In this document: positions 1,792-45,820 of the stretch, in pieces
Numbering within the stretch: position 1 is the first letter of the stretch
Layout of the letters: the number at the start of each line of letters is the position of its first letter
Assembly (NCBI RefSeq): GCF_007833165.1
Contig: NZ_VOBQ01000011.1
Span: 1 to 64,000, forward strand
Direction: 5' to 3'
DNA from: Caenimonas sedimenti
GTDB lineage: Bacteria; Pseudomonadota; Gammaproteobacteria; Burkholderiales; Burkholderiaceae_C
Length of the DNA stretch: 64,000 nucleotides
Program-made: the position numbers and the translations under genes
Notes under the pieces: model-generated
The model's database searches: none
What the model saw: only the letters and a program-made list of their open reading frames with translations
Told to the model about the DNA's origin: nothing

Positions 1792-3237
<1,446 letters not shown>

Positions 3238-3307
3238 GGAGGGCTCCAGAAAGAGTGGTTGACAATTCAGCCACCTCTGCGCCCGGGACTCACCGCACGT
3301 CAGAAGT

Positions 3308-3388
3308 GGGTGAGCGTCGTTGCGAATCAGGTCCGAGCCTCACGCCGGCGCATCGTGGAAGATGGCGGCGCTGCAACGCTCCTCGGAT
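3308..3388 (-). promoter_or_regulatory. SAH riboswitch in the ahcY leader
   Basis: Read on the minus strand from 3386, the leader has CCGAGGAGCGTTGCAG, a variable hairpin, AGGCTCGG, then CGCAACGACGCTCACC ending near 3308. This is the layout of the SAH riboswitch known from upstream of ahcY and metH genes in beta- and gammaproteobacteria. P1 pairs CCGAG with CTCGG, and GAGCGT pairs with ACGCTC to form the pseudoknot-like helix. As I remember the consensus this last pair is C-G, so U-A here would be a compensatory change. It should raise ahcY-tlyA-metF expression when SAH builds up. Confidence 0.92.
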
Positions 3389-3396
3389 TGGCCATG

Positions 3397-3425
3397 ATTC
3401 TAACGCAGGAGGCCGGGCAGCTAAA
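3397..3425 (-). promoter_or_regulatory. Candidate ahcY operon promoter
   Basis: A good -10 hexamer TAGAAT lies at 3402-3397 on the minus strand. A weak -35 (TTTAGC, 3425-3420) stands 17 bases upstream. Transcription would start near 3390, a few bases before the first riboswitch helix, which is the position expected for an aptamer at the 5' end of the RNA. The site lies immediately before the start of the divergent HAD-UbiA gene. Confidence 0.45.
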
Positions 3426-3428
3426 CTC

Positions 3429-4919
3429 ATGGCCCTTTCGCCGCCCGCACCCTTGGATTCCTCGACCGTCCCCCCGCCGCCCACCGTCGTGCCGGCCGCC
3501 GAGCCGCCCCTGGTCGTCGACCTGGACGGCACGCTGATCCGCACGGACATGCTGCACGAGTCCTCGGTGCGGCTGTTCCGCGACGCGCCACTGGCGACCC
3601 TCCGCATCCCGGGCTGGCTCGCGGCCGGCAAGGCGGTGCTCAAGCGCGAACTGGCCGAGCGCACCCCTTTCGACGCCGCCGTTCTGCCGTACAACACGGA
3701 ACTGCTGGCATGGCTGGGTGAGCAGCACCGGGCCGGCCGGCGCCTGGTGCTGTGCACCGCGACGGACGACAAGCTGGCCCGCGAGATCGCGGCCCATTGC
3801 GGCATCTTCGACGAGGTTCTGGCGAGCGACGGCACCACCAACCTGGACGGCCAGCGCAAGGCGGAGGCCCTGGTGCGCCGCTTCGGCGCGGGCGGTTTCG
3901 ACTACGCCGGCAATGCGACGGTGGACCTGGCGGTCTGGCCGCACGCACGGCGCGCCATCGTCGTGAACGCGCGCCCCTCGGTGCTGGCCGGGGCGCAGGC
4001 CTGCTGCGCCGTCGAGAAGGTGTTCCCTTCGCTGCCGGTGACCACCTGGACCTGGGTCAAGCTGGTCCGCGCGCACCAGTGGCTGAAGAATGCCCTGCTG
4101 TTCGCGCCCCTGTTCGCCGCGCACCAGGTCGATAACCTTGACGCCTGGGTGCACCTGCTGCTGGCGTTCGCCGCTTTCAGCCTCTGTGCCTCCTCGGTGT
4201 ACGTCGCCAATGACCTGATGGACCTGGAGAGCGACCGCCACCACCCGCGCAAGCGGGCGCGGCCGTTCGCGGCGGGCACGGTGCAGATCTGGGTCGGCGT
4301 GCTGCTGGTGCCGCTGCTGGCCACGGCGAGCCTGGCGCTGGCGCTGCTCGTCAACCTCGAATTCCTGGGCTGGCTCGCCATCTATTTCGCGCTGACCTGG
4401 GCCTATTCATGGCGGCTCAAGCGGGTGGTGCTGGTCGATTGCCTCACGCTGGCCGGGCTCTACACCCTGCGGGTCGTCGCGGGCGCCGCGGCCGCCTCGC
4501 TGGCGCTGTCGTTCTGGCTGCTGGCGTTCTCCGGCTTCCTGTTCCTGTCGCTGGCGTTCGTCAAGCGCTACGCCGAACTGCAGGCGCAGGCCGCCGAGGG
4601 CCGCACGCACGCCCACGGGCGGGCCTACTTGACCTCGGACGCCCCGCTGATCCAGGTGCTGGGCATCGTGTCGGGCTACACCGCGGTGGTCGTGCTGGCG
4701 CTCTACCTGAACACGGTGCTGCGTTTCTACGCGCGGCCGGAATTCGTCTGGGCCACCGTGCCGATCATGGTGTGGTGGGTCAGCTGGATGTGGCTGCGCG
4801 CCTTCCGCGGCGACATGCACGACGACCCGCTGGTCTTCGCCTTCCGCGACAAGGCCAGCGTGGCCGCCGGCGTGCTGTTCGGCGCGGTGCTGTTTCTCGG
4901 CACCAGCTGGCCATGGTGA
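3429..4919 (+). CDS. HAD phosphatase-UbiA prenyltransferase fusion (DPPR-synthase-like)
   Basis: In this 496-residue protein, residues about 30-210 form a HAD domain with motif I DLDGT and a CTATDD motif. Residues about 215-496 form a UbiA membrane domain of roughly 8-9 helices, with the Mg-prenyl-diphosphate motif NDLMDLESD and a second acidic motif HDDPLVFAFRD. UbiA proteins next to DprE1/DprE2 homologues resemble mycobacterial Rv3806c, which joins PRPP to decaprenyl phosphate. The HAD domain could remove the 5-phosphate from the product (inference). ATG 3429 is preferred because the longer frame runs through the divergent riboswitch region. An AGGAGG lies rather far upstream (3407-3412). 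Confidence 0.88.
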   Translation: MALSPPAPLDSSTVPPPPTVVPAAEPPLVVDLDGTLIRTDMLHESSVRLFRDAPLATLRIPGWLAAGKAVLKRELAERTPFDAAVLPYNTELLAWLGEQHRAGRRLVLCTATDDKLAREIAAHCGIFDEVLASDGTTNLDGQRKAEALVRRFGAGGFDYAGNATVDLAVWPHARRAIVVNARPSVLAGAQACCAVEKVFPSLPVTTWTWVKLVRAHQWLKNALLFAPLFAAHQVDNLDAWVHLLLAFAAFSLCASSVYVANDLMDLESDRHHPRKRARPFAAGTVQIWVGVLLVPLLATASLALALLVNLEFLGWLAIYFALTWAYSWRLKRVVLVDCLTLAGLYTLRVVAGAAAASLALSFWLLAFSGFLFLSLAFVKRYAELQAQAAEGRTHAHGRAYLTSDAPLIQVLGIVSGYTAVVVLALYLNTVLRFYARPEFVWATVPIMVWWVSWMWLRAFRGDMHDDPLVFAFRDKASVAAGVLFGAVLFLGTSWPW

Positions 4920-6220
4920 ACGTCGGGTCCTGGGGCCGCCTGGGCAGCTGGCCGCATGACGTGCGTCCGCTGACGGAGCACGGGCTGCCCACGCTGCCGC
5001 TGGCACCGGGCCGGCAGGGGCTGGCCTACGGCATGGGGCGCAGCTACGGCGACGTCTGCCTCAACCCGGGCGGCACCTTGTGGACGACGCCCGGCCTGGA
5101 CCGCTTCCTGGCGTTCGACAAGGAGCAGGGCCTGCTGACCTGTGAAGCCGGCGTGCTGCTGCGCGACATCCAGCGCACCTTCCTGCCGCGCGGCTGGATG
5201 CTGGCCGTGACGCCCGGCACGCAGGTGGTCACGGTCGGCGGCGCGATCGCCAACGACGTGCATGGCAAGAACCACCACGTGCGCGGCTCGTTCGGTGACC
5301 ACGTCACGCACCTGCGGCTGCTGCGCACCGACGGCACGGTCATCGAATGCGGCCCGGACCGCCACGCGGACTGGTTCGCCGCCACCGTCGGTGGCCTGGG
5401 GCTCACCGGCGTCATCGCGCAGGCCACGCTGCGGCTGATCCAGGTGCCCGGCCCCTGGCTGGACGTGGAAAGCATCCCCTACGAATCGCTCGAGGAATTC
5501 TTCGCGCTGGCGGACAGCTCGGAAGCCGGCTGGGAGTACACGGTGTCGTGGGTCGACTGCATGCATGGCGAAGGCGCCCGCGGCATCTTCATGCGCGGCA
5601 ACATGAGCGACTCCACCGGCGGCCGCGCGCCGCCCGATCACGCGCGCACCGTGCCGTTCGCGCCGCCGGTTTCGCTGGTCAACCGCTTCAGCGTGCGTCC
5701 CTTCAACTGGGTCTACTACCACCACCACCGGCAGCGCGCCGGGCGCCAGCGGGTGCATTACGTGCCCTTCTTCTATCCGCTCGACCACCTGCTGGAGTGG
5801 AACCGGGTCTACGGCCGGCCCGGCTTCTACCAGTACCAGTGCGTGCTGCCGCGCGCCGCCGGGCTCGCGGGCACGCAAGGCCTGCTGCGCGAGATCGCGG
5901 CCTCGGGCGAGGGCTCGTTCCTCGCCGTGCTCAAGACCTTCAGCGAACGCGCCGCGCCCGGGATGCTCAGCTTTGCGCGGCCCGGCGTGACGCTGGCGCT
6001 GGACTTTCCCAACCATGGCGACGCCACGCTGCGCCTGTTCGACCGCCTCGACGCGGTCGTGCGCGAGGCGGGCGGACGCATCTATCCGGCCAAGGACGCC
6101 CGCATGCCGCGCGACCTGTTCGAATCGGGCTACCCGCGCCTCGCGGAGTTCCTGCCTTTCCGCGACCCGGGCATCCGCTCGGCGTTCGCGCAGCGCGTCA
6201 TGCCTGCTTCACCGGACTAG
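4913..6220 (+). CDS. DprE1-like FAD-binding oxidoreductase (polyprenyl-phosphoryl-ribose 2'-oxidase)
   Basis: The 435-residue protein is of VAO/FAD-linked type. GRSYGD and the TVGGAIANDVHGKNHH segment match mycobacterial DprE1, and later PLDHLLEWNRVYG and the catalytic-lysine region YPAKD also match. DprE1 oxidises C2' of decaprenylphosphoryl ribose, which is then reduced by DprE2 to the arabinose epimer. The residue aligned with DprE1 Cys387 is alanine here (LALDFP where I recall the mycobacterial enzyme has ICVDFP). The start overlaps the UbiA stop by 7 bases, indicating translational coupling. An aldonolactone-oxidase-like role is the alternative but fits the neighbours less well. Confidence 0.88.
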   Translation: MVNVGSWGRLGSWPHDVRPLTEHGLPTLPLAPGRQGLAYGMGRSYGDVCLNPGGTLWTTPGLDRFLAFDKEQGLLTCEAGVLLRDIQRTFLPRGWMLAVTPGTQVVTVGGAIANDVHGKNHHVRGSFGDHVTHLRLLRTDGTVIECGPDRHADWFAATVGGLGLTGVIAQATLRLIQVPGPWLDVESIPYESLEEFFALADSSEAGWEYTVSWVDCMHGEGARGIFMRGNMSDSTGGRAPPDHARTVPFAPPVSLVNRFSVRPFNWVYYHHHRQRAGRQRVHYVPFFYPLDHLLEWNRVYGRPGFYQYQCVLPRAAGLAGTQGLLREIAASGEGSFLAVLKTFSERAAPGMLSFARPGVTLALDFPNHGDATLRLFDRLDAVVREAGGRIYPAKDARMPRDLFESGYPRLAEFLPFRDPGIRSAFAQRVMPASPD

Positions 6221-6223
6221 AAC

Positions 6224-6982
6224 ATGCAATCCATCCAGGGCACCGTCGTCATCGTCGGCGCGACCTCCTCCATCGCCGAGCACTGCGCGCGGCTGTGGCT
6301 GCAGCGCGGCGCCACCCACCTCGTGCTGGTGGGACGGGACGCCGCGCGCACGGAACATCTGGCGACGGACCTGCGCGTGCGCGGACCGCAGGCCCGCATC
6401 GACGTCGTGACCGCCGACCTGCTCGAGCCGGCGGCGGTCCGCGAGACCGTCTCCGGCCTCCTGGCTACGGGCAACGTACCGGCTACCGTGCTGATCGCGC
6501 ACGGGTCGCTGCCGGACCAGGCGGCCTGCCAGCAGGACCTGGACAGCGCCGCGGAGGCCATGCGGGTGAACGCCATCTCGCCGGTGCTGTTCGCCGAAGC
6601 CTTCGCGGGCGCCATGCAGGCCGCCGGCCGCGGCCGCATCGGCATCATCGGCTCCGTGGCGGGTGACCGCGGGCGCAAGTCGAACTACGTGTACGGCGCG
6701 GCCAAGGGCCTGGTCACACGCTACGCGCAGGGCCTGCAGCACCGCCTGGCGGCGACGCCGGTGACGGTGACCCTGGTCAAGCCCGGCCCGACCGACACGC
6801 CGATGACCGCGCACCTGAAGGCGCAAGGGGCGAAGCTGGCCGATGTGAGCGCGGTCGCGGCCGCCATCGTGGACGGCATCGAGCGCGGTGCCCCCGTGGT
6901 GTATGCGCCAGCGAAGTGGGCCTTGATCATGATGGTCATCCGCCACCTGCCGCGCTTCGTCTTCAACAAGATGGACATCTGA
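6224..6982 (+). CDS. DprE2-like short-chain dehydrogenase/reductase
   Basis: This is a 252-residue classical-length SDR. The N-terminal nucleotide-binding turn is VGATSSIAE, and the catalytic set is Ser144, Tyr157 and Lys161 (GSVAG, then YGAAK). A C-terminal hydrophobic stretch (about 226-245) may contact the membrane, as expected for a lipid-linked sugar substrate. It starts 3 bases after the DprE1-like gene. In the DprE1/DprE2 pair the SDR reduces the 2'-keto intermediate to polyprenyl-phosphoryl-arabinose. The assignment rests mainly on this pairing, because SDR sequences alone seldom fix the substrate. Confidence 0.85.
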   Translation: MQSIQGTVVIVGATSSIAEHCARLWLQRGATHLVLVGRDAARTEHLATDLRVRGPQARIDVVTADLLEPAAVRETVSGLLATGNVPATVLIAHGSLPDQAACQQDLDSAAEAMRVNAISPVLFAEAFAGAMQAAGRGRIGIIGSVAGDRGRKSNYVYGAAKGLVTRYAQGLQHRLAATPVTVTLVKPGPTDTPMTAHLKAQGAKLADVSAVAAAIVDGIERGAPVVYAPAKWALIMMVIRHLPRFVFNKMDI

Positions 6983-6996
6983 GCCTGATTTCGAAG

Positions 6997-9099
6997 ATGC
7001 TTCCTTCTCGCGAAGCGCTCGTCACCTGGACGCTGCGGGTGCTGGCCCCGCTGTTCGTCCTGCTCGCCGTCGTCGGCGCGGTGCGCAACTACACCGAGGT
7101 GCCGCACTGGGACATGTGGCCCAGCTACGTCGACTTCTACCTGCGGATCGGCGAGGGCCATGGGGGCGACTGGTGGTCGCTGCACAACGAGCACCGCATC
7201 GTGCTCGCGCGCCTGCTCTTCTGGCTCGACCACCGGCTGTTCTCGGGCACGCTGTGGTTCCTGCTGGTGGTGAACTACCTTCTGGTGTTCGCGGCCTTCC
7301 TGACCTTCCGCGCCATCCTGCGCGAGCGCGCGGGCGCGGATGCGGACAGCAAGCCGGTCACCCTGGCCTCCCTGTTCGTGCTGCTGTGCCTGTTCTCCTG
7401 GATGCAGAAGGAGAACCTGACCTGGGGCTTCCAGAGCCAGTTCTTCCTGGCGCAGTGGCTGCCGCTGCTCGCGCTCTGGCTGCTGTACCGGGCCACGCGG
7501 CCGGTGCCGGAGGCGAGCCGCGACTTCGCGCTCGCCTGCATCGTCGGCGTCCTGTGCATCATGACCATGGCCAGCGGCGTGATCGCCCTGCCGCTGATGG
7601 TGGTGTACGCCGCCCTGCAGCGCATGGGCTGGCGGCGCATCGGCGTGCTGGCGGCGCTGGCGGTCCTCTGCCTCGTCGCGTACTTCACCGACTACCAGTC
7701 CACGCCCGGGCACGGCAGCCTGCGCGACGTGCTGCGCTACCGGCCCGAGAAGCTCGTGCAATACGTGCTGCTGTACCTGGGCTCACCGTGGTTCCACATG
7801 GTCAAGGAGCGCTCGCTGCCGCTGGGGCAGCTGGCGGGCCTCGCGCTCGTCGTCCTGGCTTCGGTGCAGGCGGTGCGCTGCCTGCGGGCCCCGCGTGAGC
7901 ACGCGCTGCAGCTGTGCCTGCTCGCCTTCATCATGTACATCGGCGGCACCGCGTTCGGCACGGGCGCGGGCCGCCTCGTGTTCGGGTTGCGCCAAGCCAC
8001 CGCCGAGCGGTACACGACGCCCGCCCTCATGGCCTGGATGGCGCTGCTGGCGCTTTACCTTCCCACGGTGCTGCGCCAGCTCGCCGGCTGGCGCCACCGC
8101 ATCGTGTGGCCCTTGCTGGCGCTGCTGGCGCTGCTGCTCGTGTTGCAGCTCGACGCCCGGCGATCCCAGCGGCCCATGCTGTTCGAACGGGACGTCGCCG
8201 CGGTGGCGATGGAACTCGGCGTGCTGGACCACGAGCAGCTGATCCGCATCATCTTCAGCCCCGAACTTGGCGTGTACTACGGGGCGCGGGCGGCACCCGT
8301 CGACCTCAGCGTGTTCGGCCGGCCCTGGCTCAAGGACGCCGGCACCCTGCTCGGCCGGCCTGCGGGTCCTGTGCCGGAGGCGGCCTGCCGCGGCGCGCTG
8401 GTGCAAATGGACACGCTGCCCGGCGAGCCCGGGTTCCGGCGCCTGGTCGGCTGGATCGCGCCGGCCACGGGCGAGAACAACATCCACACGTTGCGCGTCG
8501 TGGACCCTGCCGGTGACGTCGTCGGCTATGCGCTGGCCAGCGAGCGCAACAGGAAGCCGCGCGCGGACCTCGGGAACGTGGCGGACACGCGCTTCTTCAA
8601 GGGCTACGTCCTGACGCGCGCGGCGCACGGCCCGCTCGCCGTCGTCCCGGCGGACGCCGGCTGCGCGCTGCGCGTGACCGGTCCGCCCGCGCCCCCCTTC
8701 GACATCACGCCCACCATCATGGCCCTGTCGAAGGTGAACGTCACCAGCGGCGCGGTCCTGCGCAACGAGGGCTGGCAAGGCACCGACTACCTGCGTTCGA
8801 GCGCGCCCGGCTTCCGGACGCTGGGCACCATCATCCAGGGCGACCAGGACACGGGCACGATCCAGCTGCGCCTGAAACGCGGCGCCGCTTTCGTCTACCG
8901 CAACGGGCCCGTGAACGGCAGCCAGCGCTTCCAGGTGGACGACGGGCGGCAGTTCGCGGGCACCATGCCCCGGGCGGACCGCTGGTCCGCCGTGGTGTTC
9001 GACAATCCCCTGCTTCCGCAAGAATTCACCCTGACCCTGACCGATGCCGGTGCCGGCTGGGGTGAGTGGTCCGCCATCGGCATCATCGACAAACCATGA
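6997..9099 (+). CDS. Multi-pass membrane protein, GT-C glycosyltransferase-like with C-terminal beta domain
   Basis: The protein has 700 residues. An N-terminal membrane part (about 1-390) has some 10-11 helices. The first extracytoplasmic loop carries HWDMWPSY (37-44) and HNEHR (63-67), an acidic/aromatic loop of the type used by GT-C enzymes on polyprenyl-phosphate sugars. Residues about 400-700 look periplasmic and beta-rich at the end, like the carbohydrate-binding tail of arabinosyltransferases such as EmbC. I do not recognise a named family. In this operon it is the best candidate for the transferase using the arabinose donor. ATG 6997 was chosen over earlier in-frame codons that overlap the SDR gene. 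Confidence 0.7.
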
Positions 9100-10037
9100 A
9101 CGACGCAAAGATCCTGCTCCCCGGCGGCGCCGGGCTGGTGGGACAGAACCTGGTGGCGCACCTCAAGCGCGCCGGCTACCGCCATCTCGTGGTGCTGGAC
9201 AAGCATCGCGCCAACCTCGAAGTGCTGCGCCGCGTGCAGCCGGACATCACGGTGGTGGAGGCCGACCTGGCCGAGCCCGGCGACTGGGAGCGGCATTTCG
9301 AAGGTGCCGCCGCCGTGGTGATGCTGCAAGCCCAGATCGGCGACCTGGCGCCCGAGCCCTTCGTGCGCAACAACATCACGTCGACGGAGCGCGTGCTGGA
9401 GGTGATGCGGCGCCAGCCGCAACTGCCCTACCTCGTGCACATCAGCTCCTCGGTGGTGAAATCGGTGGCGGACGACCACTACACCAACACCAAGCGCCGG
9501 CAGGAGGAGATCGTGCTCGCGAGCGGCGTTCCCTGCGTGGTCCTGCGGCCCACGCTGATGTTCGGCTGGTTCGACCGCAAGCATCTCGGCTGGCTGGCCC
9601 GTTTCATGAAGAAGGTGCCGGTGTTCCCCGTGCCCGGCCACGGCCGCTACATGCGGCAGCCGCTCTACGCCGCCGACTTCTGCCGCATCATCGTGAGCTG
9701 CATCGAACAGCGCGTGCAGGGCCAGGTGTTCAACATCTCGGGGCTCGAGCGCATCGACTACATCGACATGATCCGCGAGATCAAGCAGGCGACGCGCGCC
9801 GGCTCGGTCATCCTGAAGATTCCCTATGGCCTGTTCCGCGTGCTGCTGCAGACCTGGGCGCTGTTCGACAAGAACCCGCCGTTCACCGCGGACCAGCTGA
9901 AGGCCCTGGTGGCGCACGACGAGTTCGAGGTCATCGACTGGCCGGGCATCTTCGGCGTGCAGGCGACACCTTTCGCCATGGCGGTCCACGAAACCTTCAA
10001 CGATCCCGAATACGGGCAGATCGTCCTGGAATTCTGA
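9096..10037 (+). CDS. NAD-dependent epimerase/dehydratase family protein
   Basis: The 313-residue extended-SDR protein has the glycine-rich loop [13 protein letters not shown] at the N-terminus and the family's SSSVVKS strand. The usual YxxxK appears to be YTNTKRRQE (about residue 129). The ATG overlaps the stop of the membrane protein gene as ATGA, so the two are coupled. Substrate unknown; proteins of this class act on nucleotide sugars or lipid-linked sugars. With the next FAD protein it seems to extend the core arabinose-donor pathway, perhaps modifying the sugar or acceptor (inference). Confidence 0.8.
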
Positions 10038-11335
10038 TGACCACCGGACAACGCATCGCGGTTCTCGGCGCCGGCCCCATGGGCCTGGCGGTGGCCTACC
10101 AGCTCGCGCGCGACGGCCACCGGCCGGTGGTGTTCGAAGCCGACGACCGCGTCGGCGGCATGACGGCGATGTTCGACTTCGCCGGACTCACCATCGAACG
10201 CTATTACCACTTCCACTGCCTCTCGGATCACGCGTTCCTGAAGGTGCTGGACGAACTGGGCCTGGCCGGCAAGATGCGCTGGGTCGAAACGAAGATGGGC
10301 TATTGGTACCAGCGGCAATTGCAGCCCTGGGGCAACCCCGTGGCATTGCTGAAGTTCCGTGGCCTGAGCCTGGTGGCGAAGTTCCGCTATGGCTTGCACG
10401 CCTTCCTGTGCACGAAGCGCACCGACTGGAAGCCGCTGGACCACGTGGAGGCAACGGGCTGGATCCGCCGCTGGGTCGGCGAAGAAGCGTGGGAAGTGCT
10501 GTGGCGCCGGCTGTTCGACTACAAGTTCTACGACAAGGCGCACAACCTGTCGGCCGCCTGGATCTGGAGCCGCATCCGCCGCATCGGCCGCTCGCGTTCC
10601 AGCCTGATGAGCGAAAAGCTGGGCCACCTGGAAGGCGGCTCCCAGACGCTGCTGCAAGGCCTGAAGGACGACATCGAAAAGCACGGCGGCGAGATCCGGC
10701 TGCGGCACCCGGCGAAGAAGGTGCGGCTGGAAGGCGGCGCGGTCGCCGGCGTGGAGACCGCCGAAGGCTTCGAAGCTTTCGACAAGGTGGTCAGCACCGT
10801 GCCGCTGCCGTTCGTGCCGCGCCTGCTGCCTGACCTGCCCGAGGAGCTGCTGGAGAAGTACCGCGCGCTCCAGAACATCGCCGTGGTCTGCGTCATCGCC
10901 AAGCTGCGCCGCCAGGTCACGCCCAACTTCTGGCTGAACGTCAACGACCCGGAGATGGACATTCCCGGCCTCGTCGAATACAGCAACCTGCGGCCGCTGG
11001 GCGACGAGCACGTGGTCTACGTGCCCTTCTACATGCCGGGCGAGCACCCCAAGTTCGCCGAGCCCGACCAGGCCTTCCTCGACAAGGTGAAGCACTACCT
11101 GAAGACGATCCAGCCGGCGCTGACGGACGACGACTTCCTGGCGATGCGCGCCAGCCGCTACCGCTACGCCCAGCCGGTCTGCCCGCCGGGCTTCCTGGAC
11201 ACCTTGCCACCGTTCGAGCTGCCGGTGCGTGGCCTCTGGGTGGCCGACACCTCGTACTACTACCCGGAAGACCGCGGCATCTCCGAAAGCATTGACTTCG
11301 GCCGGATGATGGCGCGCAAGGCGGCCGCCGCGTGA
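10037..11335 (+). CDS. NAD(P)/FAD-dependent oxidoreductase (amine-oxidase/UGM-like fold)
   Basis: The 432-residue protein begins with the dinucleotide motif [19 protein letters not shown] and continues with the GG doublet segment DRVGGM. It ends with a typical FAD-contact region ([19 protein letters not shown]). Proteins of this group (protoporphyrinogen-oxidase-like, related in fold to UDP-galactopyranose mutase) are frequent in polysaccharide clusters. The start ATG shares one base with the preceding stop (TGATG). Its reaction is not known. A ring-form or redox change on a glycan precursor is possible. Confidence 0.82.
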
Positions 11336-11733
11336 TGCGTGCCTTCGCCTCGCGGCAGTTCCTGGCCTTCCTGGTCACCGGCGGCATCGCGGCACTGGTG
11401 AATTTCGGTTCGCGGATCGTCCTGAACCTCTGGATGCCGTTCCCAGTGGCGGTGGTGGTGGCCTACCTGCTCGGCATGGTCACGGCCTTCCTGCTGGCGC
11501 GCGCCTTCGTGTTCGCGGGCTCCACGCAATCGGTGCAGCGCTCCGCGACCTTCTTCGTGCTGGTGAACCTGGTCGCCATCGCGCAGACCTGGATCATCAG
11601 CGTGGCGCTGGCCTACTACGTGCTGCCGGCACTTGGCGTGCGTGCCTTCGTGAACGAGATCGCCCACGGCATCGGCGTCATGGTGCCGGTGTTCACCAGC
11701 TACCTCGGCCACAAGCGCTTCTCGTTCCGGTGA
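11335..11733 (+). CDS. GtrA family membrane protein
   Basis: The 132-residue protein has four predicted membrane helices and the GtrA pattern: an N-terminal FLVTGGIAALVNF and a C-terminal SYLGHKRFSF motif. GtrA proteins are implicated in flipping or handling polyprenyl-linked sugars, and mycobacterial Rv3789, a GtrA protein, lies beside dprE1. Here it overlaps the preceding stop codon (GTGATG), with GTG 11332 as an alternative start. Its presence supports membrane translocation of the lipid-linked sugar made by this operon. Confidence 0.87.
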   Translation: MRAFASRQFLAFLVTGGIAALVNFGSRIVLNLWMPFPVAVVVAYLLGMVTAFLLARAFVFAGSTQSVQRSATFFVLVNLVAIAQTWIISVALAYYVLPALGVRAFVNEIAHGIGVMVPVFTSYLGHKRFSFR

Positions 11734-11737
11734 GCCC

Positions 11738-12688
11738 GTGAAGCTGCGCAAGGCTTTCTGGGCGGCGGCGGCGGTCACCGTGCTGTACGTGGCCGCCCTG
11801 TTCTGGGCCGATTCGCGCAACCGCGTGTTCGACCGGCTGCCCGAAGTCGCGGCGCTGCTGCCCGCGCTGATGGCCATGTCGCTGTTCTCGTATGCGTTGC
11901 GCTACCTGCGCTGGTGGTGGTTGCTGGCGCGGATCGGGCACAAGACGCCGTTCCTGCATGGCTGGTGGGCCTACCTCAGCGGATTCGCATTCACCGCGAC
12001 GCCGGGCAAGGTCGGCGAGTTGCTGCGCATCCGCTACTTCCTGCCGCTGGGGGTGCCGCCCGCCAGGGTGCTGGCAGTGTTCGTGTTCGAACGGGCCTGC
12101 GACGTGATCGCCGTCGCCTTGCTGGCTGCGCTGGCGATCCACGACAGCCGCTACTTCGCGCTGTTGCTGACCTTCGTGCTCGGTCTGCTGGCGGTGGTCG
12201 CCGTCCTGGCCACCCAACCGCGGCTGCTGGGCAGCATCGCCGCCACCGCCAGGAAGCGGCGGATGCCGCGCCTCGCCCGCCTGCTGCGTACCCTGCGCGA
12301 TGGCCTGTCGGGCGCACGCGAGTGGATCCATCCGCGCGAGCTGCTGGTCAGCCTGCTGCTCGGGCTGGCGGCCTGGGGCATTTCCGCCTGGGCTTTCGTC
12401 TGGCTGCTGGGGCGGCTGGGCATCGTGCTGGAAGCCACCGCCGCGCTGTCGCTCTATCCCACCGCGATGCTGGTGGGCGCGGCGTCCTTCCTGCCGGGCG
12501 GCGTGGGCGCGACGGAGGCCGTCATCGTCGTGTTGCTCGCCCTGCACGCCGTGCCGCTGGGCATCGCGACGCTCGCCGCCGTGGCCATCCGGCTGGCCGG
12601 GCTGTGGTTCTCGGTCGCCTGCGGCTTCGTGGCCATCGCGCAGCTCGAAAGGCGCACCGGCGCACACAAACCGGTGCCGGCAAGTTAA
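11738..12688 (+). CDS. UPF0104 / lysylphosphatidylglycerol-synthase-type transmembrane protein
   Basis: The 316-residue integral membrane protein has about eight helices and the family's landmarks: TPGKVGELLR near residue 88, FVFERACD and SFLPGGVGATE. It starts with GTG 4 bases after gtrA. Such flippase-domain-like proteins occur in many polysaccharide and glycolipid loci, and their roles are mostly unproven. It closes the eight-gene operon. The ligase gene follows after only 9 bases, so read-through is likely. Confidence 0.8.
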   Translation: MKLRKAFWAAAAVTVLYVAALFWADSRNRVFDRLPEVAALLPALMAMSLFSYALRYLRWWWLLARIGHKTPFLHGWWAYLSGFAFTATPGKVGELLRIRYFLPLGVPPARVLAVFVFERACDVIAVALLAALAIHDSRYFALLLTFVLGLLAVVAVLATQPRLLGSIAATARKRRMPRLARLLRTLRDGLSGAREWIHPRELLVSLLLGLAAWGISAWAFVWLLGRLGIVLEATAALSLYPTAMLVGAASFLPGGVGATEAVIVVLLALHAVPLGIATLAAVAIRLAGLWFSVACGFVAIAQLERRTGAHKPVPAS

Positions 12689-12697
12689 AAGGGACCC

Positions 12698-13783
12698 ATG
12701 GCCACCAAGAACACTCCACAGGCACTTGTGCCCCCGATCGAACCGATGCTGGCCCGGACCGCCGAGGCGCTGCCCGAGCAGGAAGGCTACCTGTTCGAAC
12801 CCAAATGGGACGGGTTTCGCGCCCTCGTCTTCCGCGGGCCGGACGAAACCTACCTGCAAAGCCGCGACCTGAAGCCGTTGAACCGCTACTTCCCCGAGCT
12901 GGAGAAGGCGCTGCATGAAATGCTGCCCCGCGGCTGCGTGCTGGACGGCGAGATCGTGATCGCGACACCGAAGGGGCTGGACTTCGACGCCCTGCAACAG
13001 CGCATCCACCCGGCCCCTTCGCGCATTGCCCGGGTCGCCAAGGAGACACCGGCCAGCTTCATCGCGTTCGACCTGCTGAGCGCGGGCGGCCGCTCGACGA
13101 TGGGCCTGACGCAGGCTGAACGCCGCGAGCGCCTGGAGCGCCTGCTGGGCAGCGCGAAGCCGCCGCTGCGGCTGACGCCCATCACCAGCGATCGCGCCGA
13201 GGCGCAGAAGTGGCTGACGGAGTTCGAAGGCGCCGGCCTCGACGGCGTGATGGCCAAGCTGGAAAAGGCGGCCTACCAGCCCGGCAAGCGCGCGATGCTG
13301 AAAATCAAGCACGTGCGCAGCGCCGACTGCGTGGTGGCCGGCTTCCGCTGGTACAAGGACCGTGACGATGCCGTCGGCTCGCTGCTGCTGGGGCTTCATG
13401 ACGATGCCGGCCAGCTGCAGCACGTGGGTGTGACGTCCGCCTTCCCGATGGCGATGCGCGAGCAGCTGGCCCAGGACCTGGCGCCGCTGCGCAAGAACGC
13501 CCTGGAGAATCATCCGTGGCGCGACTGGGCCGATGCGGCGTCGGCCGAGTCGCAACGCATGCCCGGCGCCCAGAGCCGCTGGAGCGGCGGCAAGGACCTG
13601 AGCTGGCAACCGCTGCGCCCGGAGCGCGTGTGCGAAGTGAAATACGACCACCTGCAAGGCGACCGCTTCCGCCACGCCGCGATCTTCCTGCGCTGGCGGC
13701 CCGACAAGCCGCCGGAGCAATGCCGCTACGACCAGCTGGAGGTGACGACGCCGTTCGAGCTGGCCAAGGTTTTCGGCGCCTGA
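12698..13783 (+). CDS. ATP-dependent DNA ligase, LigC-like
   Basis: This 361-residue ligase lacks polymerase or nuclease modules. The adenylation domain has motif I EPKWDG with nucleophilic Lys36, followed by FIAFDLL (motif III-like), DGVMAK (motif IV) and LKIK (motif V). An OB-fold domain follows from about residue 245. Size and domain set match mycobacterial LigC rather than LigD. It is convergent with a separate LigD-type polymerase gene only 3 bases away. No Ku gene is in the window. A role in gap-filling/ligation repair is likely. Confidence 0.88.
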   Translation: MATKNTPQALVPPIEPMLARTAEALPEQEGYLFEPKWDGFRALVFRGPDETYLQSRDLKPLNRYFPELEKALHEMLPRGCVLDGEIVIATPKGLDFDALQQRIHPAPSRIARVAKETPASFIAFDLLSAGGRSTMGLTQAERRERLERLLGSAKPPLRLTPITSDRAEAQKWLTEFEGAGLDGVMAKLEKAAYQPGKRAMLKIKHVRSADCVVAGFRWYKDRDDAVGSLLLGLHDDAGQLQHVGVTSAFPMAMREQLAQDLAPLRKNALENHPWRDWADAASAESQRMPGAQSRWSGGKDLSWQPLRPERVCEVKYDHLQGDRFRHAAIFLRWRPDKPPEQCRYDQLEVTTPFELAKVFGA

Positions 13784-13786
13784 CGT

Positions 13787-15022
13787 TCACGCCTTCGGCT
13801 TGCCATCCTTCGGGCGCAATCGTGCCGGCACATGCGTGAGGTTGACGCGCACGCGGTACCAGAGCGATGAACTCCCGCGCATGCGGTCCACCAGCACGTC
13901 CGCAGGCTCCAGGTGGGCCGCCGCCTTGGGATGCTCGGTCTTCCAGGCTTCCAGCTGGGCCAGCGCCTCGGCCTCGCGGTCGGCCCGCGCGACTTCGATC
14001 AGCGGCGCGCGCACTTTCTTCGCCGCCGTGGAGGGCGGGGCGCGCCGGGGCTCGCCCGCCGCCTTGCGGTAGTGCGGCGGCCAGGGGGCATCACCCAGGC
14101 CGGCCGCCTCCTGCTGCTCGGACAGCGCCAGCAGGCTGTCGAGCGAGCATGGTGCTTCGTCGATGCCGGCGTGCGGGTCACCGACGCGGCTCAGGCGCTC
14201 GGGCATGGTGTGCAGCGTGAAGTCGGCCGGGTCGCAAGCAGCCAGTTCGTCCCACGAAATCGGTGCTGAAACCCGCGCATCCGGCTTGGGCCGCACCGAG
14301 TAGGCCGATGCCACGGTGCGGTCCTTGGCGTTCTGGTTGTAGTCGATGAAGACGCCGTGGCGCTCCTCCTTCCACCACTTGCTGGTGGCGAGTTCGGGCG
14401 CGCGCCGCTCGACGTCGCGCGCCAGCGCCAGCGCGGCCCGCCGGACCTGGTCGAAGCTCCAGCGCGGCGCGATCCGCACCAGCACGTGCAAGCCGCGCGA
14501 GCCGGACGTCTTCAGCCAGCCCTGCAGCCCGTAGTCGTCCAGCACGGAGCGCACCACGGCGGCCACGTCGCGGATCTGCGGCCACTCGACGCCGGGCACG
14601 GGATCGAGGTCCACGCGCAATTCGTCCGGATGATCCAGATCGGAGGCGCGCACCGGATGCGGGTGCAGTTCGAGGCAGGCGAGGTTGGCCATCCAGGCGA
14701 GGTCGGCGGCATGGCGCGGCACCACCTCCTCGGCCGAGCGGCCGGAAGGAAAGCGGATCTGCGCCACCTCCAGCCAGTCCGGCCGTTTGGCCGGCGCGCG
14801 CTTCTGGAAAAAGAACTCCCCGTCGATGCCGTCCGGGTAGCGCACCAGCACGCAGGGCCGGCCACCGGCGCCTCGCAAGGCGCCCTCCGCCACGGCCAGG
14901 TAGTACCTGACCAGGTCGAGCTTGGTGACGCCCGCGGTGGGGATGAGGATCTTGCCGGGGTGGGTGACGACGATGTCGCGATCGCCGGCAGGCACCACCA
15001 CCGAATCGTCAGCTGCGCCCAT
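13787..15022 (-). CDS. Stand-alone LigD-type polymerase/primase (Prim-Pol)
   Basis: The 411-residue protein belongs to the archaeo-eukaryotic primase family as found in the LigD POL domain. The metal-binding residues are visible: DLD at 138-140, SGSRGLH at 173-179 and the third Asp in VFIDYNQN near 227. Roughly 100 extra residues follow the usual 300-residue core, rich in Ala, Glu and Lys. There is no fused ligase or phosphoesterase; the ligase is the convergent neighbour. Related mycobacterial Prim-PolC works with LigC in short-gap repair, so the two genes probably form a functional pair. Confidence 0.86.
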   Translation of the reverse strand: MGAADDSVVVPAGDRDIVVTHPGKILIPTAGVTKLDLVRYYLAVAEGALRGAGGRPCVLVRYPDGIDGEFFFQKRAPAKRPDWLEVAQIRFPSGRSAEEVVPRHAADLAWMANLACLELHPHPVRASDLDHPDELRVDLDPVPGVEWPQIRDVAAVVRSVLDDYGLQGWLKTSGSRGLHVLVRIAPRWSFDQVRRAALALARDVERRAPELATSKWWKEERHGVFIDYNQNAKDRTVASAYSVRPKPDARVSAPISWDELAACDPADFTLHTMPERLSRVGDPHAGIDEAPCSLDSLLALSEQQEAAGLGDAPWPPHYRKAAGEPRRAPPSTAAKKVRAPLIEVARADREAEALAQLEAWKTEHPKAAAHLEPADVLVDRMRGSSSLWYRVRVNLTHVPARLRPKDGKPKA

Positions 15023-21546: not shown

Positions 21547-24500
21547 TCAGCCGCGCGCCAGGACGGGGGCCAGCGCCACACCTGTGTGGGTGCCACGGGC
21601 CACCACGTCCTCCGGCGAGGCGGCTGCCACCACCTTGCCACCCGCCGTTCCGCCTTCCGGACCCAGGTCGATGACCCAGTCGGCTTCGGCGATCACGTCC
21701 AGGTCGTGCTCGATCACGACGACGCTGTGGCCGCCGTCCACCAGCCGGTGCAGCACGCGGATGAGTTTCTCGACATCGGACATGTGCAAGCCGACCGTGG
21801 GCTCGTCCAGCACGTAGAGGGTGTGTGGCGCCTTCTGGCCGCGCCGCGTCACGTCGTCGCGGACCTTGCTGAGCTCGGTCACCAGCTTGATGCGCTGGGC
21901 CTCGCCACCGGACAAGGTCGGCGATGGCTGCCCCAGGGTGAGGTATCCCAGGCCGACGTCGCGCAGCAACTGCAAGGGGTGGCTGATGTTGGGCATGGCC
22001 GAGAAGAACTCGACCGCCTCGTCCATCTCCATCTGCAGCACGTCGCCGATGTTCTTGCCGCGCCAGGTGACGGCGAGCGTCTCCGGGTTGAAACGCGCGC
22101 CACGGCAGGCTTCGCATGGCACTTTCACGTCGGGCAGGAAACTCATGGCGATGGTGCGCACGCCCTGGCCCTCGCACAGCGCGCAACGGCCCTCCCCGGT
22201 GTTGAAGGAGAAGCGGCCGGGCCCGTAACCGCGCGCGCGCGCCTCCAGCGTGTCGGCGAACAGTTTGCGGATGGTGTCCCAGAAGCCGATGTAGGTGGCG
22301 GGGCAGGAGCGCGGCGTCTTGCCAATGGGCGTCTGGTCGACTTCCAGCACGCGATCCACGGTCTGGTAGCCGTCCAGCGATTTGCAGCCCACCAGCGCGG
22401 GGCGCTTGCCGCGCTCGTCGGCATCGCGGCCGGCCTTGGTGGTGCGCTGCTGCACGATGGCCTGCACGTTCTGCAGCAAGACGTCGCGCGCCAGCGTCGA
22501 CTTGCCGGAACCGGACACACCGGTGACGACCACGAGGCGCTGCAGCGGAACGTTGACGTCGATGTCGTCGAGGTTGTGCAGGTCCGCGCCCCGCAGCTCC
22601 AGGCTGGGGATCTTGCGCGGCACGGCACGGCGCGCCTGCACCGGGTGCCGCATCGCATGCAGCAGGTAGCGGCCAGTCACGGATTCGCCGTCCGCCGAGA
22701 TGTCCGCGGCCTGGCCCTCCGCCACGACCCGGCCGCCGCGCTTGCCCGCGCCGGGGCCGATGTCGATGATGTGGTCCGCGCGGCGGATGGTGTCCTCGTC
22801 GTGTTCCACCACCACCAGCGTGTTGCCCTTGTCGCCCAGCTTGTGCAGCGCGTTCAGCAGGATCTGGTTGTCGCGTGCATGCAGGCCGATGGTGGGCTCG
22901 TCGAGCACGTAGCACACGCCCTGCAGGTTGGAGCCCAGTTGCGCGGCCAGGCGGATGCGCTGGGCCTCGCCGCCGGAGAGCGTGGGCGCGCCGCGGTCGA
23001 GGGTGAGGTACCCCAGGCCGACCTCCTCCAGGAACTCCAGCCGCGACTTGATCTCGGGGATCAGGTCGCGGGCGATGCCCTGCTCGCGCACGGACAGGAC
23101 ATCCGCCACCTGCAGGCTTTCGACCCAGCGCCGCACGTCTTTCACCGACAGCGAGGCGATGTCCGCAATCCCGGTCTTGTCGAAGCGCACCGCGCGCGCC
23201 TGGATGTTCAAGCGCGTGCCGTGGCAGGTCGAGCAGGCCTCGTCGGCCACGCCTTCCACTTCGGGCTCGGCGAAGGTCTGCTCGCGGCCCTTGTCCTCGG
23301 CCGCCACCAGCGTGTCGTCGAAAGCCTTGCGCTGGTCGCGGGTGAGGCGGACGCCGGTGCCCACGCAATCGGGACACCAGCCGTGCTTGCTGTTGTACGA
23401 GAACAGGCGCGGATCGAGCTCGGGATAGCTGGTCGCGCAGACCGGGCAGGCGCGCAGCGTGGAGAAGACTTCGATCTTGCCGATGCCGTCGTGCTTGCCT
23501 GAATGGAAGGCCGCCTTGAGGCCGTCGAGCGGCGCCAGCACGTGCAGGATGCCCTTGCCGTGCTCGAGGGCCGTCGCCAGCTTGGCACGCAGCAGTTCCT
23601 CGTTGGCCGGCGTGACGTCCAGGTCGCACACCGGCAGTTCGATCGTGTGCTCCTTGAAGCGGTCGATGCGCGGAAAGCCGGTGGTGGGCAGGAAGTTGCC
23701 GTCCACGCGCAGGTGCGTATAGCCACGCGGCCGCGCCCAGTCGGCCAGCTCGGTGTAGACGCCCTTGCGGTTCAGCACCAGCGGCGCCAGCAGGCCGATG
23801 TGCTGGCCGCGATAGCGCTTCATGATCTGCGCGACGATGCTGTCGGGTGTCTGTGGCCGGACTTCGGCGCCCTCGTTCACGCAGTGCTGCACGCCCAGCT
23901 TGACGTACAGCAGGCGCAGGAAGTGCCAGACCTCGGTGGTGGTACCCACGGTGGACTTGCGCCCGCCGCGCGAGAGCCGCTGCTCGATCGCCACCGTGGG
24001 CGGGATTCCGTACACCGCGTCGACTTCCGGCCGGCCGGCCGGCTGCACGATGCTGCGCGCGTACGCGTTGAGCGATTCCAGGTAGCGCCGCTGCCCTTCG
24101 TTGAACAGGATGTCGAAGGCCAGCGTCGATTTGCCCGAGCCGGACACGCCGGTGATCACGCTGAACTTGCCGTGCGGAATGTCGACGGTGAGGTTCTTGA
24201 GGTTGTGCTCCTTGGCGTTGACGATCTGGATGGCGTTCACGCGCAAATTGGGGTCAGATTCCGATTTCGGCGTCGGTTCGTGCGCCAGCAGATGCGTGCC
24301 CAGGGTCGCGTCATAGTCCCGCAGCGCCTTGGCGGTGTGCGAGGTCGGATGCTGCTTCACATCCTCCGGCGGGCCTTCGGCGACCAACAGGCCGCCCTCG
24401 TCACCACCTTCAGGGCCCAGGTCCACCAGCCAGTCGGCCGCGCGGATCACGTCGAGGTTGTGCTCGATGACGATCAGCGAATGTCCCGCCTCCAGCAGCT

Positions 24501-27270
24501 TGCGCAGCGCGCGCATCAGCTTGGCGATGTCGTCGAAGTGCAGGCCCGTGGTGGGCTCGTCGAACAGGAACAGCGTGCCCTTGGTCGCCTTGGCCTGGCG
24601 GCTCGAAGTCGCGTCGCGCGCGGCTTGCGCCAGGAACCCCGCGAGCTTGAGGCGCTGCGATTCGCCGCCGGACAGCGTGGGCACGGGCTGCCCCAGCTTC
24701 ACGTATTCCAGGCCGACATCCACGATCGGCTGCAGCGCACGGATGACGTCACGGTCATTGGCGAACAGTGCCGCGGCTTCGCTGACCGTGAGGTCCAGCA
24801 CATCGGCCACGTTCATCCGGCGTGGGTGGAGGGCGCCGATCGGCTGCCGGTCGATCGTCACTTCGAGGATCTCCGGCCGGTAGCGCTTGCCGTCGCAATC
24901 GGGGCAGCGCAGGTAGACGTCGGAGAGGAACTGCATCTCGACGTGCTCGTAGCCCGAGCCGCCGCAGGTGGGGCAACGGCCGTCGCCCGAGTTGAAGCTG
25001 AACTTGGACCCCGTGTAGCCGCGCTGCCGCGCCAGCGGCGCCGTCGCGAAGATCTCGCGCAGCGAATCCCAGGCGCCCACGTAGCTCACGGGATTGGAGC
25101 GCGCCGTCTTGCCGATGGGCGACTGGTTCACGAACACGACGTCGCTCAGGTGGTCGGCGCCCAGCAGCCGGTCGTGCGCACCCGCCGACTCCGTCGCGCG
25201 GCCGAAGTAGCGCAGCAGCGCCGGCGCCAGGATGTCCTGGATCAGGCTGGACTTGCCCGAGCCGGAGACGCCGGTCACGCACACCAGGCGCTGCAGCGGG
25301 AACTCGATCGACACATCGCGCAGGTTGTGCTCGCGCGCGCCTTCCAGCACCAGCCGCGGCGTCGCGTCGGTCACGGCGCGCTTGAAGCCCATGCCCACGT
25401 GCTTGCGCGCGCCCAGGTAGGCGCCGGTCAGCGTGTCGGCATGGCGCAGGTCATTCGTGGTGCCGTCGAAGACGATCTGGCCGCCGCGCTCGCCCGGGCC
25501 CGGGCCCATGTCGATGATGCGGTCGGCGGCCATCATCACCGCCGGATCGTGCTCCACCACCACCAACGTGTTGCCGGCGTCACGCAGCCGCTGCATGGCC
25601 TGGGTGATGCGGTGCATGTCGCGCGGATGCAGGCCGATGCTGGGTTCGTCCAGCACGAACAGCGTGTTCACCAGCGAGGTGCCGAGCGCCGTGGTCAGGT
25701 TGATCCGCTGCACCTCGCCGCCTGACAGCGTGCGGCTCTGGCGATCCAGCGTCAGGTAGCCGATGCCGACGTCCGACAGGTACTTGAGGCGGGTGTGGAT
25801 CTCCTCGAACAGCATCTTCAGCGCCTGCAGGTCGCCGGTGCCGGCATGCGCCTCGGCCTCCGGCTCCACCTGCGCGAAGAACTTGCGCAGCCGCGCGATC
25901 GGCATGAGCATCAGGTCGTGCAGGCTCAGGCCGGGCAGGGCTTCGAGCTGTTCGCGCGACCATTGCACGCCGGCGGGCATGAAGCGCTTCTCCGGCGGCA
26001 AGCCGACGTCGGCGTCTTGCTTGCTGCCGAGGCGCCACAACAGCGGTTCATGCTTCAGCCGCGCGCCCTTGCAGGTTTCGCAGGGCGTGTAGCTGCGGTA
26101 CTTGGACAGCAGCACGCGGATGTGCATCTTGTACGCCTTGCTCTCCAGGTACTGGAAGAAGCGCTTGATGCCGTACCACTGCTTGTTCCACTGGCCCTCC
26201 TTGTAGCCGGGCGTGCCGTTGATCACCCAGCCCTGCTGCTCGGGCGTGAGCTTGTACCAGGGCGTGTCGCGCGGGACGCCGGCCGCTTCGGCGTGCCGCA
26301 TCATGTCGTCCTGCGATTCGGACCAGGCGGGCGTGGAGAAGATCTTGATCGCGCCGGCGCGCAACGTGAGCTTGTCGTTGGGGATGACCAGGTTGTAGTC
26401 GACGCCGATCACCCGGCCGAAGCCGCGGCAGACCTCGCAGGCCCCCACCGGCGAGTTGAACGAGAACATCGACGGGACCGGATCCGCATAGCGGATGTCG
26501 CTGTCGGGGCAATGCAGGCCGGTGGAGAACTTCCAGGTCAAATAATTGGAATCTGACCCCAATTCTTGGGCGTAGACGGTGAGCCGTCCCGCGCCGCGCT
26601 TCAAGGCCACTTCGATGGCTTCGATCGCCCGGATCTTCTCCGTGCCCTGGATGCGGAAGCGGTCGGCCACGACGTCCAGCACCTTGCGCGGACCCGTGGG
26701 CGTGGCCACCTCGCGCTCGGCATGGACGCGCGTGAAGCCGCTGGCCGCCAGCCACTGCTCGACTTCCTCGGGCGTCGTCCCCCCCGGCAATTCCACCGGG
26801 AACGTCACCACCAGGCGCGGATCGCCCTCTTTCGTCCGCGCCATCAACTGCTCGTAGATCGTCTCGGGCGAGTCGTGCCGCACCGGCAGCGCCGTCTGCT
26901 TGTCGAACAACTGGGCGGCTCGCGCGAACAACAGCTTCAGGTGGTCGTTCAGCTCCGTCATCGTCCCGACGGTCGAGCGCGAGGAGCGCACCGGATTGGT
27001 CTGGTCGATGGCAATGGCGGGCGGCACGCCTTCCACGCGGTCGACTGCCGGCTTGTCCATGCGGTCGAGGAACTGCCGCGCATAGGCGGAGAACGTCTCG
27101 ACGTAGCGGCGCTGGCCCTCCGCGTAGAGCGTGTCGAACACCAGGCTGGACTTGCCGGAGCCGCTGGGCCCCGTGACCACCGTCAGCTCCCCGGTGCGCA
27201 GGTCGAGATCGAGGTTCTTGAGGTTGTGCTGTCTGGCGCCGCGGATGCGGATGGAACCCTGCTGGGACAT
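21547..27270 (-). CDS. uvrA: Double-length excinuclease ABC subunit A (tandem UvrA)
   Basis: At 1907 residues this is about twice the usual 940-950 of UvrA. It holds two UvrA units in tandem (about 1-985 and 990-1907), giving four Walker A motifs near residues 34, 667, 1042 and 1585 and four LSGGE signatures. In unit 1 the first zinc module is degraded (CPDS where CxxC is expected), while unit 2 keeps CPVC...CPDC. UvrA loads UvrB at DNA damage, normally as a dimer; this protein could act as a covalent pseudo-dimer. Two copies of a 17-bp repeat interrupt it in frame, near residues 238 and 1005. Confidence 0.94.
24246..24262 (+). repeat. 17-bp repeat inside uvrA, copy A
   Basis: AATTGGGGTCAGATTCC is an exact 17-base match, in opposite orientation, to 26548-26564. 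It falls in the linker between the two UvrA units and is translated on the minus strand as part of SESDPNLR. Its A+T content is well above that of the surrounding gene, which suggests an inserted word and not native coding sequence. Confidence 0.85.
26548..26564 (-). repeat. 17-bp repeat inside uvrA, copy B
   Basis: This is the reverse complement of 24246-24262, about 2.3 kb away, and is translated as part of GSDSNYLT in a loop before the degraded zinc module of UvrA unit 1. The flanking bases (AATT on one side, AATTC on the other) extend its A+T-rich look. The reading frame is kept. Confidence 0.85.
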
Positions 27271-45819: not shown

Positions 45820-45820
45820 C

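Follow-up and report, generated by a model that had tools for sequence, protein, structure and literature searches.

A three-component pentofuranose system is described by Kelly et al. (2024, PMC11127046) as a donor synthase, a flippase, and a GT-C glycosyltransferase. The activity of the HAD-UbiA fusion is proven there, the Citrobacter fusion making farnesyl-phospho-ribofuranose, and the short-chain dehydrogenase/reductase (SDR) ORF13 of Citrobacter alone decides between xylofuranose (Xylf) and ribofuranose (Ribf), that is, the configuration at C3. The same text reports homologues of DprE1 and DprE2 in candidate systems for arabinofuranose (Araf)-containing glycans and leaves unexplained the elaborate systems of Xanthomonas and Bacillus that carry several candidate epimerases or GT-Cs. 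Here, we analyzed an operon of eight genes (g1 to g8) in the first 64,000 nucleotides of contig NZ_VOBQ01000011.1 of Caenimonas sedimenti; this whole stretch is referred to below as the window. For this operon, a sequence-only reading had proposed a polyprenyl-phospho-arabinofuranose system with a possibly new product. Our analysis upholds the arabinose route; its novelty falls away, as HAD-UbiA together with DprE1/E2 homologues was already published in 2024 (PMC11127046) and is common. What stands out is the gene pair g5-g6, whose strict pairing was overlooked at the time, as was the HAD phosphatase of g1 itself. As comparative genomics suggests, this pair probably converts polyprenyl-phospho-D-arabinofuranose into another pentose.

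The eight genes span positions 3429-12688 on the plus strand, and every frame is free of internal stops:

3429-4919, plus strand: g1, fusion of a putative HAD phosphatase at the N terminus (Pfam match 3513-3857) with a UbiA-type polyprenyl-phosphate phosphoribosyltransferase (Pfam match 4125-4844)
4913-6220, plus strand: g2, DprE1-like flavin adenine dinucleotide (FAD) oxidase (Pfam FAD_binding_4; DprE1 is the top NCBIfam model)
6224-6982, plus strand: g3, DprE2-like short-chain reductase (Pfam adh_short; DprE2 is the second-best NCBIfam model)
6997-9099, plus strand: g4, GT-C glycosyltransferase by predicted structure (membrane domain approximately 6997-8289; C-terminal carbohydrate-binding-like sandwich approximately 8728-9087)
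9096-10037, plus strand: g5, extended SDR of the epimerase/dehydratase (NAD-epimerase) type (Pfam Epimerase, 77 bits)
10037-11335, plus strand: g6, FAD enzyme of the PRK07233 family (Amino_oxidase/PRK07233; amine oxidase, desaturase, and mutase superfamily)
11332-11733 (alternative start 11335), plus strand: g7, probable flippase for lipid-linked sugars, of the GtrA family (Pfam GtrA_DPMS_TM, 50.5 bits against a cut-off of 26.1)
11738-12688, plus strand: g8, UPF0104/LPG_synthase_TM flippase-like membrane protein, accessory (Pfam LPG_synthase_TM, 126.6 bits)

From g1 to g8, successive junctions measure -7, +3, +14, -4, -1, -4, and +4 bases. All seven are tight, with an overlap at four of them, and the proposed run of eight genes is confirmed.

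Genes g1 to g3 and the arabinose donor

The g1 product matches the Pfam models UbiA (83 bits) and HAD (34.6 bits) and passes the NCBIfam model PRK08238 (644 bits against a cut-off of 351), and its best relative in the PDB is the mycobacterial phosphoribosyltransferase Rv3806c (8j8j, E = 1.6e-29). We aligned g1 copies of 0.9 to 1.15 times the length of the window g1 and dropped all others. The UbiA residues N261, D262, D265, D269, R380, and E383 are identical in all 61 aligned sequences, while D31 and D33 of the HAD domain are kept in all 53 sequences that reach them, the other 8 being gapped there. The six residues tested in Citrobacter ORF15 (N247, D248, D251, D255, R366, and E369; Kelly et al. 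2024, PMC11127046) recur in g1 at a constant offset of 14. Judged by these residues, namely the NDxxDxxxD motif, the R/E pair, and the nucleophilic Asp of the HAD domain, g1 is a predicted polyprenyl-phosphate phosphoribosyltransferase with a phosphatase domain (PPPRS-PRP).

For the FAD protein g2, which might have aligned better to unrelated oxidases, mycobacterial DprE1 is the best match both in the PDB (4aut, E = 4.4e-67 over residues 32-417) and among the eight NCBIfam models listed, where it scores 325 bits, below its cut-off of 500. Residues H117, K119, and K394 are kept in 66/66 homologues and match the HGKNHH motif and Lys418 of DprE1, catalytic and substrate-contacting residues of the solved enzyme. 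The position of Cys387 of the mycobacterial enzyme, the benzothiazinone target, is occupied by Ala in all 66 aligned homologues. The corresponding question for g3, whether it resembles unrelated reductases more closely, received a divided answer: in the PDB, mycobacterial DprE2 is clearly first (21gq_C, E = 4.2e-28; next, 7.7e-16), whereas among the NCBIfam models the unnamed SDR model NF005489 (240 bits) outscores DprE2 (153 bits, below the cut-off of 250). N116, S144, Y157, and K161 of g3, including the catalytic Ser/Tyr/Lys of SDRs, are kept in 69/69 sequences. Since both scores lie under the curated NCBIfam cut-offs, we refer to g2 and g3 as DprE1-like and DprE2-like. With Rv3806c, DprE1, and DprE2 as their best solved relatives and with catalytic residues kept, the three genes bear out the initial assignment, and by homology to characterized enzymes they would very probably give the lipid-carried arabinose of the kind made by tuberculosis bacteria.

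Putative transferase and flippases

Sequence searches placed g4 in no named family of Pfam or NCBIfam and found no PDB relative, and g4 was therefore assigned by its fold. The predicted structure has a GT-C fold, in agreement with the sequence-only reading, and the modeled C-terminal domain resembles carbohydrate-binding modules. Both g4 and Citrobacter ORF12 (GT136) end in a domain of the carbohydrate-binding(-like) kind and have an Arg-Tyr pair, which we regard as a lead only. The g7 protein, with g8, is a probable flippase as judged by family only; a MATE-family flippase does not occur among the eight genes, which encode GtrA and LPG_synthase_TM proteins instead. A putative donor synthase (g1), a flippase candidate (g7, with g8), and a predicted GT-C (g4), the three components of a pentofuranose system, are thus found in one cluster.

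The g5-g6 pair accompanies the donor genes

We searched 398 Pseudomonadota genomes for HAD-UbiA (E <= 1e-60), DprE1 (E <= 1e-40), g5 (E <= 1e-30), and g6 (E <= 1e-40). The HAD-UbiA model was matched in 49 genomes, in 41 over its whole length and in 8 mostly by the UbiA part, with much or all of the HAD domain lacking, and 44 of the 49 also had a DprE1 homologue. Together with the published work, these counts show that the Gram-negative arabinose route is neither rare nor new. In a further search aimed at the Citrobacter prototype, the family to which G058 belongs (246 genomes) showed HAD-UbiA only in G058 itself (1/246). The g5 gene was detected in 8 of the 398 genomes and g6 in 9, namely the same 8 and G175, where a distant homologue with just 33% identity to g6 lies beside GT2 and UPF0104 genes. 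All eight pair-bearing genomes carry a whole-length HAD-UbiA and DprE1; by a naive count that ignores kinship, the chance that all eight fall within the 49 HAD-UbiA genomes is 3e-8. Because the two genes co-occur strictly, and do so only in a minority of HAD-UbiA systems, the sugar finally donated may differ from arabinofuranose.

Of the 250 relatives found in a scan with g6, the 80 best were taken as g6 loci. These contain HAD-UbiA in 70 cases, DprE1 in 71, DprE2 in 74, g5 in 79, and GtrA in 77, and, by similarity, a g4 relative in 26 and UPF0104 in 23. All six core genes are present in 68 of the 80 loci, in the same order and on the same strand in 66, and g5 directly precedes g6 in 77. Judging from record titles, this six-gene cassette is spread over beta- and gammaproteobacteria. 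In five loci (L100, L120, L138, L139, and L153), a methyltransferase-like gene, assigned by Pfam for L138 and L153 only, stands between g6 and GtrA and suggests further decoration in some species.

Within the genus, the complete set of eight genes recurs in unchanged order, at 57 to 77% identity, in one of the 12 other genomes (G005), which argues that the cluster is not a chance assembly. Conservation of gene order, which the sequence-only reading had left to be checked, is seen for the core in the 66 loci and for the whole operon in G005. A match to g4 is absent from the other 11 of the 12 genomes. In G011, g1 and g5-g8 lie together, with g2/g3 on another contig; there (L063:8010-13913), the DprE1/DprE2 pair adjoins rmlBDA-like genes, as seen by eye, and a GT2 gene identified by Pfam, away from HAD-UbiA. 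G009 and G007 have a simpler cluster of HAD-UbiA, a GtrA-like protein, DprE1, DprE2, and a membrane protein, with no g6 in the genome and no g5 in the 20-kb stretch read, and G004 has a contig-truncated form.

These simpler clusters, in which genes 1-3 are joined by GtrA and a candidate membrane transferase, speak for a plain D-arabinofuranose system, in which the final donor is undecaprenyl-phospho (undP)-D-Araf and g5-g6 serve a second donor or modify the acceptor. Of the 44 sampled genomes that match both the HAD-UbiA model and DprE1, 36 also lack the pair, and some g6 loci have two multi-span membrane candidates. We nevertheless consider this explanation unlikely, although it is the strongest of the rivals, in view of the fact that g5-g6 keep with genes 1-3 while the membrane families vary and that most g6 loci have one GtrA and many only a single multi-span candidate.

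The variation of the membrane proteins is considerable. They stand around the core of the g6 loci, mostly between DprE2 and g5, and, with five added sequences (window, L006, L047, L049, and L051), they cluster at E < 1e-6 into seven groups with at least three members each (30, 12, 11, 10, 10, 5, and 3), plus small groups and singletons; the group of 12 sits downstream of GtrA on the opposite strand. Among ten of these proteins searched with Pfam, PMT_2 was clear in one, PMT_2 and GtrII were below the cut-off in one each, and seven gave nothing relevant. Of all these proteins, g4 alone is thus assigned to GT-C on the basis of its fold. That the pair stays with genes 1-3 while the membrane families change points, in the simplest reading, to action on a donor common to the loci and not on acceptors that vary.

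Sequence identities add to this picture. Between the window and a Pseudomonas locus (L079), g1, g2, and g3 are 47, 49, and 40% identical, whereas g5 and g6 reach 75 and 79%; genes 1-3 of L079 are hardly closer to the window than the DprE1 of the pair-less genus systems (43 to 46%). Two further loci (L132 and L143) give 42 to 50% for g1-g3, 66 to 72% for g5, and 75 to 76% for g6, while g5 falls to 58% in L072. Measured by g5, L079 is closer to the window than L065 is (75 versus 68%), and measured by g1 the reverse is true (47 versus 63%). High identity of g5-g6 where that of g1-g3 is low points to an exchange of modules. A midpoint-rooted DprE1 tree has the pair in several deep lineages and groups the three genus sequences without it on a branch of their own.

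A local HAD-UbiA gene is missing from 10 of the 80 g6 loci. For six of these, and for G166 and G175, the search was extended to the whole assembly, leaving out the short loci L083, L102, L103, and L122. HAD-UbiA was located at a distance from the locus in L066, L094 (the same genome as G166), L096, and L138, and was not found in the assemblies of L116 (Massilia brevitalea), L093 (a metagenome-assembled genome), and G175. Among the genes that follow g5-g6-GtrA in the Massilia locus (L116:9056-18061), Pfam identifies an epimerase-type SDR and a GT2; by eye, others resemble genes for a CDP-glucose dehydratase, a nucleotidylyltransferase, another GtrA, and a large membrane protein. At L154:9856-13205, a distant g6 homologue (33%) adjoins UPF0104 and GT2 genes, a context hinting that this flavoenzyme family serves several polyprenyl-phospho-sugar routes.

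Possible activities of g5 and g6

The g5 protein keeps Y129xxxK133 and S117-119 in 80/80 aligned sequences, g6 holds many invariant charged residues, and the best structural match of g6 is a carotenoid desaturase. That match, and the distant homologue beside GT2 and UPF0104 genes rather than UbiA, would be compatible with g6 modifying the polyprenyl chain in a desaturase- or isomerase-like manner and leaving the sugar alone. Such a role appears improbable to us, as it would explain neither the sugar-epimerase-type SDR that accompanies close g6 in all eight sampled genomes nor the invariant charged residues.

UDP-galactopyranose mutase was considered as an identity for g6 on account of sequence motifs. 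Five genus proteins passing the mutase model cut-off, from five of six loci fetched (the gene in L169 was not recovered), provided a mutase profile, but in the hhalign alignment to it nothing beyond the FAD-binding start (68 columns) aligned, and in the fold comparison other flavoenzymes rank above the mutase. No full-length match by sequence or profile was obtained, and on these two grounds a mutase role for g6 stays a guess.

We return to the reading that the pair acts on the donor sugar. More tentatively than the conversion as such, g5-g6 could be viewed as a portable two-enzyme converter to another lipid-linked pentose, possibly L-xylopyranose, by ring isomerization and C4 epimerization; we find this quite possible rather than probable. 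L-Xylose is the C4 epimer of D-arabinose, and in the most specific form, which is doubtful, g6 would be a furanose/pyranose mutase and g5 a C4-epimerase, leading from undP-D-Araf through undP-D-arabinopyranose to undP-L-xylopyranose. L-Xylose occurs in O-antigens and we know of no biosynthetic route to it; as the end sugar here it is a guess. A limited literature search met no report of the g5-g6 pair.

Alternatively, g5 might act as a C3-epimerase after DprE1/E2 and produce undP-lyxofuranose, with g6 assisting the redox chemistry. The precedent is Citrobacter ORF13, an SDR that sets Xylf versus Ribf at C3 (PMC11127046), and DprE1/E2 would supply the inversion at C2. In the same text, however, ORF13 is reported to act alone, which leaves the strict pairing with g6 unexplained, and we rate this route as quite unlikely.

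Proposed pathway

We propose that the operon makes a polyprenyl-phospho-pentose donor and supplies it to a periplasmic transferase. After g1 has transferred phosphoribose from phosphoribosyl pyrophosphate to the polyprenyl phosphate, its HAD domain would strip the 5-phosphate to leave undP-ribofuranose; g2 and g3 would oxidize and then re-reduce C2 to give undP-D-arabinofuranose; g5 and g6, apparently transferable as a pair, would produce another pentose from it; GtrA would flip the donor, possibly with the help of UPF0104; and the GT-C g4 would move the sugar onto an envelope glycan or protein. The first two steps draw on homology to characterized enzymes, the third on comparative genomics, and the last two on family and fold. 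As a whole, the five-step scheme seems to us rather more probable than not.

Several points weigh against it. The scores of g2 (325 of 500 bits) and g3 (153 of 250 bits) miss the curated DprE1/DprE2 cut-offs; g2/g3 of G011 lie on a separate contig; and for the other membrane groups Pfam backs a GT-C assignment in 1 of 10 proteins and weakly in 2 more. The loci were picked by similarity to g6, which biases g6 identity upward, and the DprE1 tree may also fit a pair gained once, early on, after which genes 1-3 drifted faster than g5-g6. L116 carries g5 and g6, and L093 carries g6, with no HAD-UbiA found in either assembly, and the pair may therefore also work with another donor; the 33%-identical g6 homologue adjoins GT2 and UPF0104 genes. 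Finally, we infer that the pair acts on the donor and not on the acceptor or the lipid.

Neighboring genes and other features of the window

Within 3200-12850, a sigma-70 promoter scan found 0 sites versus 0.5 expected, and 8 terminator-like sites were found versus 4.6 expected; neither count is informative. Upstream of the operon, the opposite strand carries genes for methylenetetrahydrofolate reductase, an S4/FtsJ methyltransferase, and S-adenosylhomocysteine (SAH) hydrolase, the last preceded by an SAH riboswitch (3305-3390, minus strand; Rfam RF01057, 56.3 bits) that adjoins the divergent operon start. Downstream of g8, an ATP-dependent DNA ligase (12698-13783, plus strand) and a LigD primase-polymerase domain (13787-15022, minus strand) are separate convergent genes; in other bacteria, these parts are fused in LigD. 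We do not count these neighbors in the operon, because the genes past g8 in the relative G005 differ and lie on the opposite strand. Elsewhere, the window encodes a double-length UvrA (21547-27270, minus strand; 1907 amino acids), which one UvrA model matches end to end in residues 7-971 and another best in 1341-1905, and two adjacent glycosyltransferase family 25 (lipopolysaccharide type) genes (44947-46714, plus strand; 290 and 297 amino acids). No tRNA was found within the window.

Comparison with known systems

If g5-g6 do act on lipid-linked arabinose, a conserved six-gene cassette with interchangeable transferase candidates would make an unrecognized pentose donor and represent a new branch of polyprenyl-phospho-sugar metabolism, leading from phosphoribosyl pyrophosphate to a sugar for which we know of no biosynthetic route. 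Such a cassette would add to a pathway known chiefly from tuberculosis bacteria and bear on the elaborate systems of Kelly et al. (PMC11127046). It would also provide genes for predicting an unusual surface sugar.

As in the pairing of GalE with UDP-galactopyranose mutase (Glf), an SDR epimerase is here joined to a flavoenzyme of what may be the same fold class; unlike in that case, only the FAD-binding start of the mutase aligns with g6, and the mutase is not the closest fold match of g6. The noeCHOP genes of Azorhizobium, for Nod factor arabinosylation, and the D-Araf genes for Pseudomonas aeruginosa pilin are likewise proposed Gram-negative uses of mycobacterial arabinose gene homologues; their acceptors are known, and the available text on them mentions no partners of the g5/g6 kind. 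The Citrobacter youngae O1/O2 system (PMC11127046) shares the HAD-UbiA fusion with the same catalytic positions, a GT-C with a C-terminal carbohydrate-binding domain, and auxiliary epimerases expected to act before flipping, but has a MATE flippase where GtrA (and UPF0104) are found here, together with the g5-g6 pair.

By homology, the reaction order resembles that of the mycobacterial decaprenyl-phospho-arabinose pathway (Rv3806c, Rv3807c, DprE1/DprE2, Rv3789, and Emb/Aft). We take Rv3789 to be a GtrA protein. Both pathways would have a small membrane exporter, Rv3789 being called SMR-type by Kelly et al., and GT-C transferases, some with carbohydrate-binding domains (PMC11127046). In contrast to the mycobacterial pathway, with its separate phosphatase and several GT-Cs, the Caenimonas operon has a fused phosphatase, one GT-C in the cluster, Ala at the position of DprE1 Cys387, and the extra pair g5-g6.

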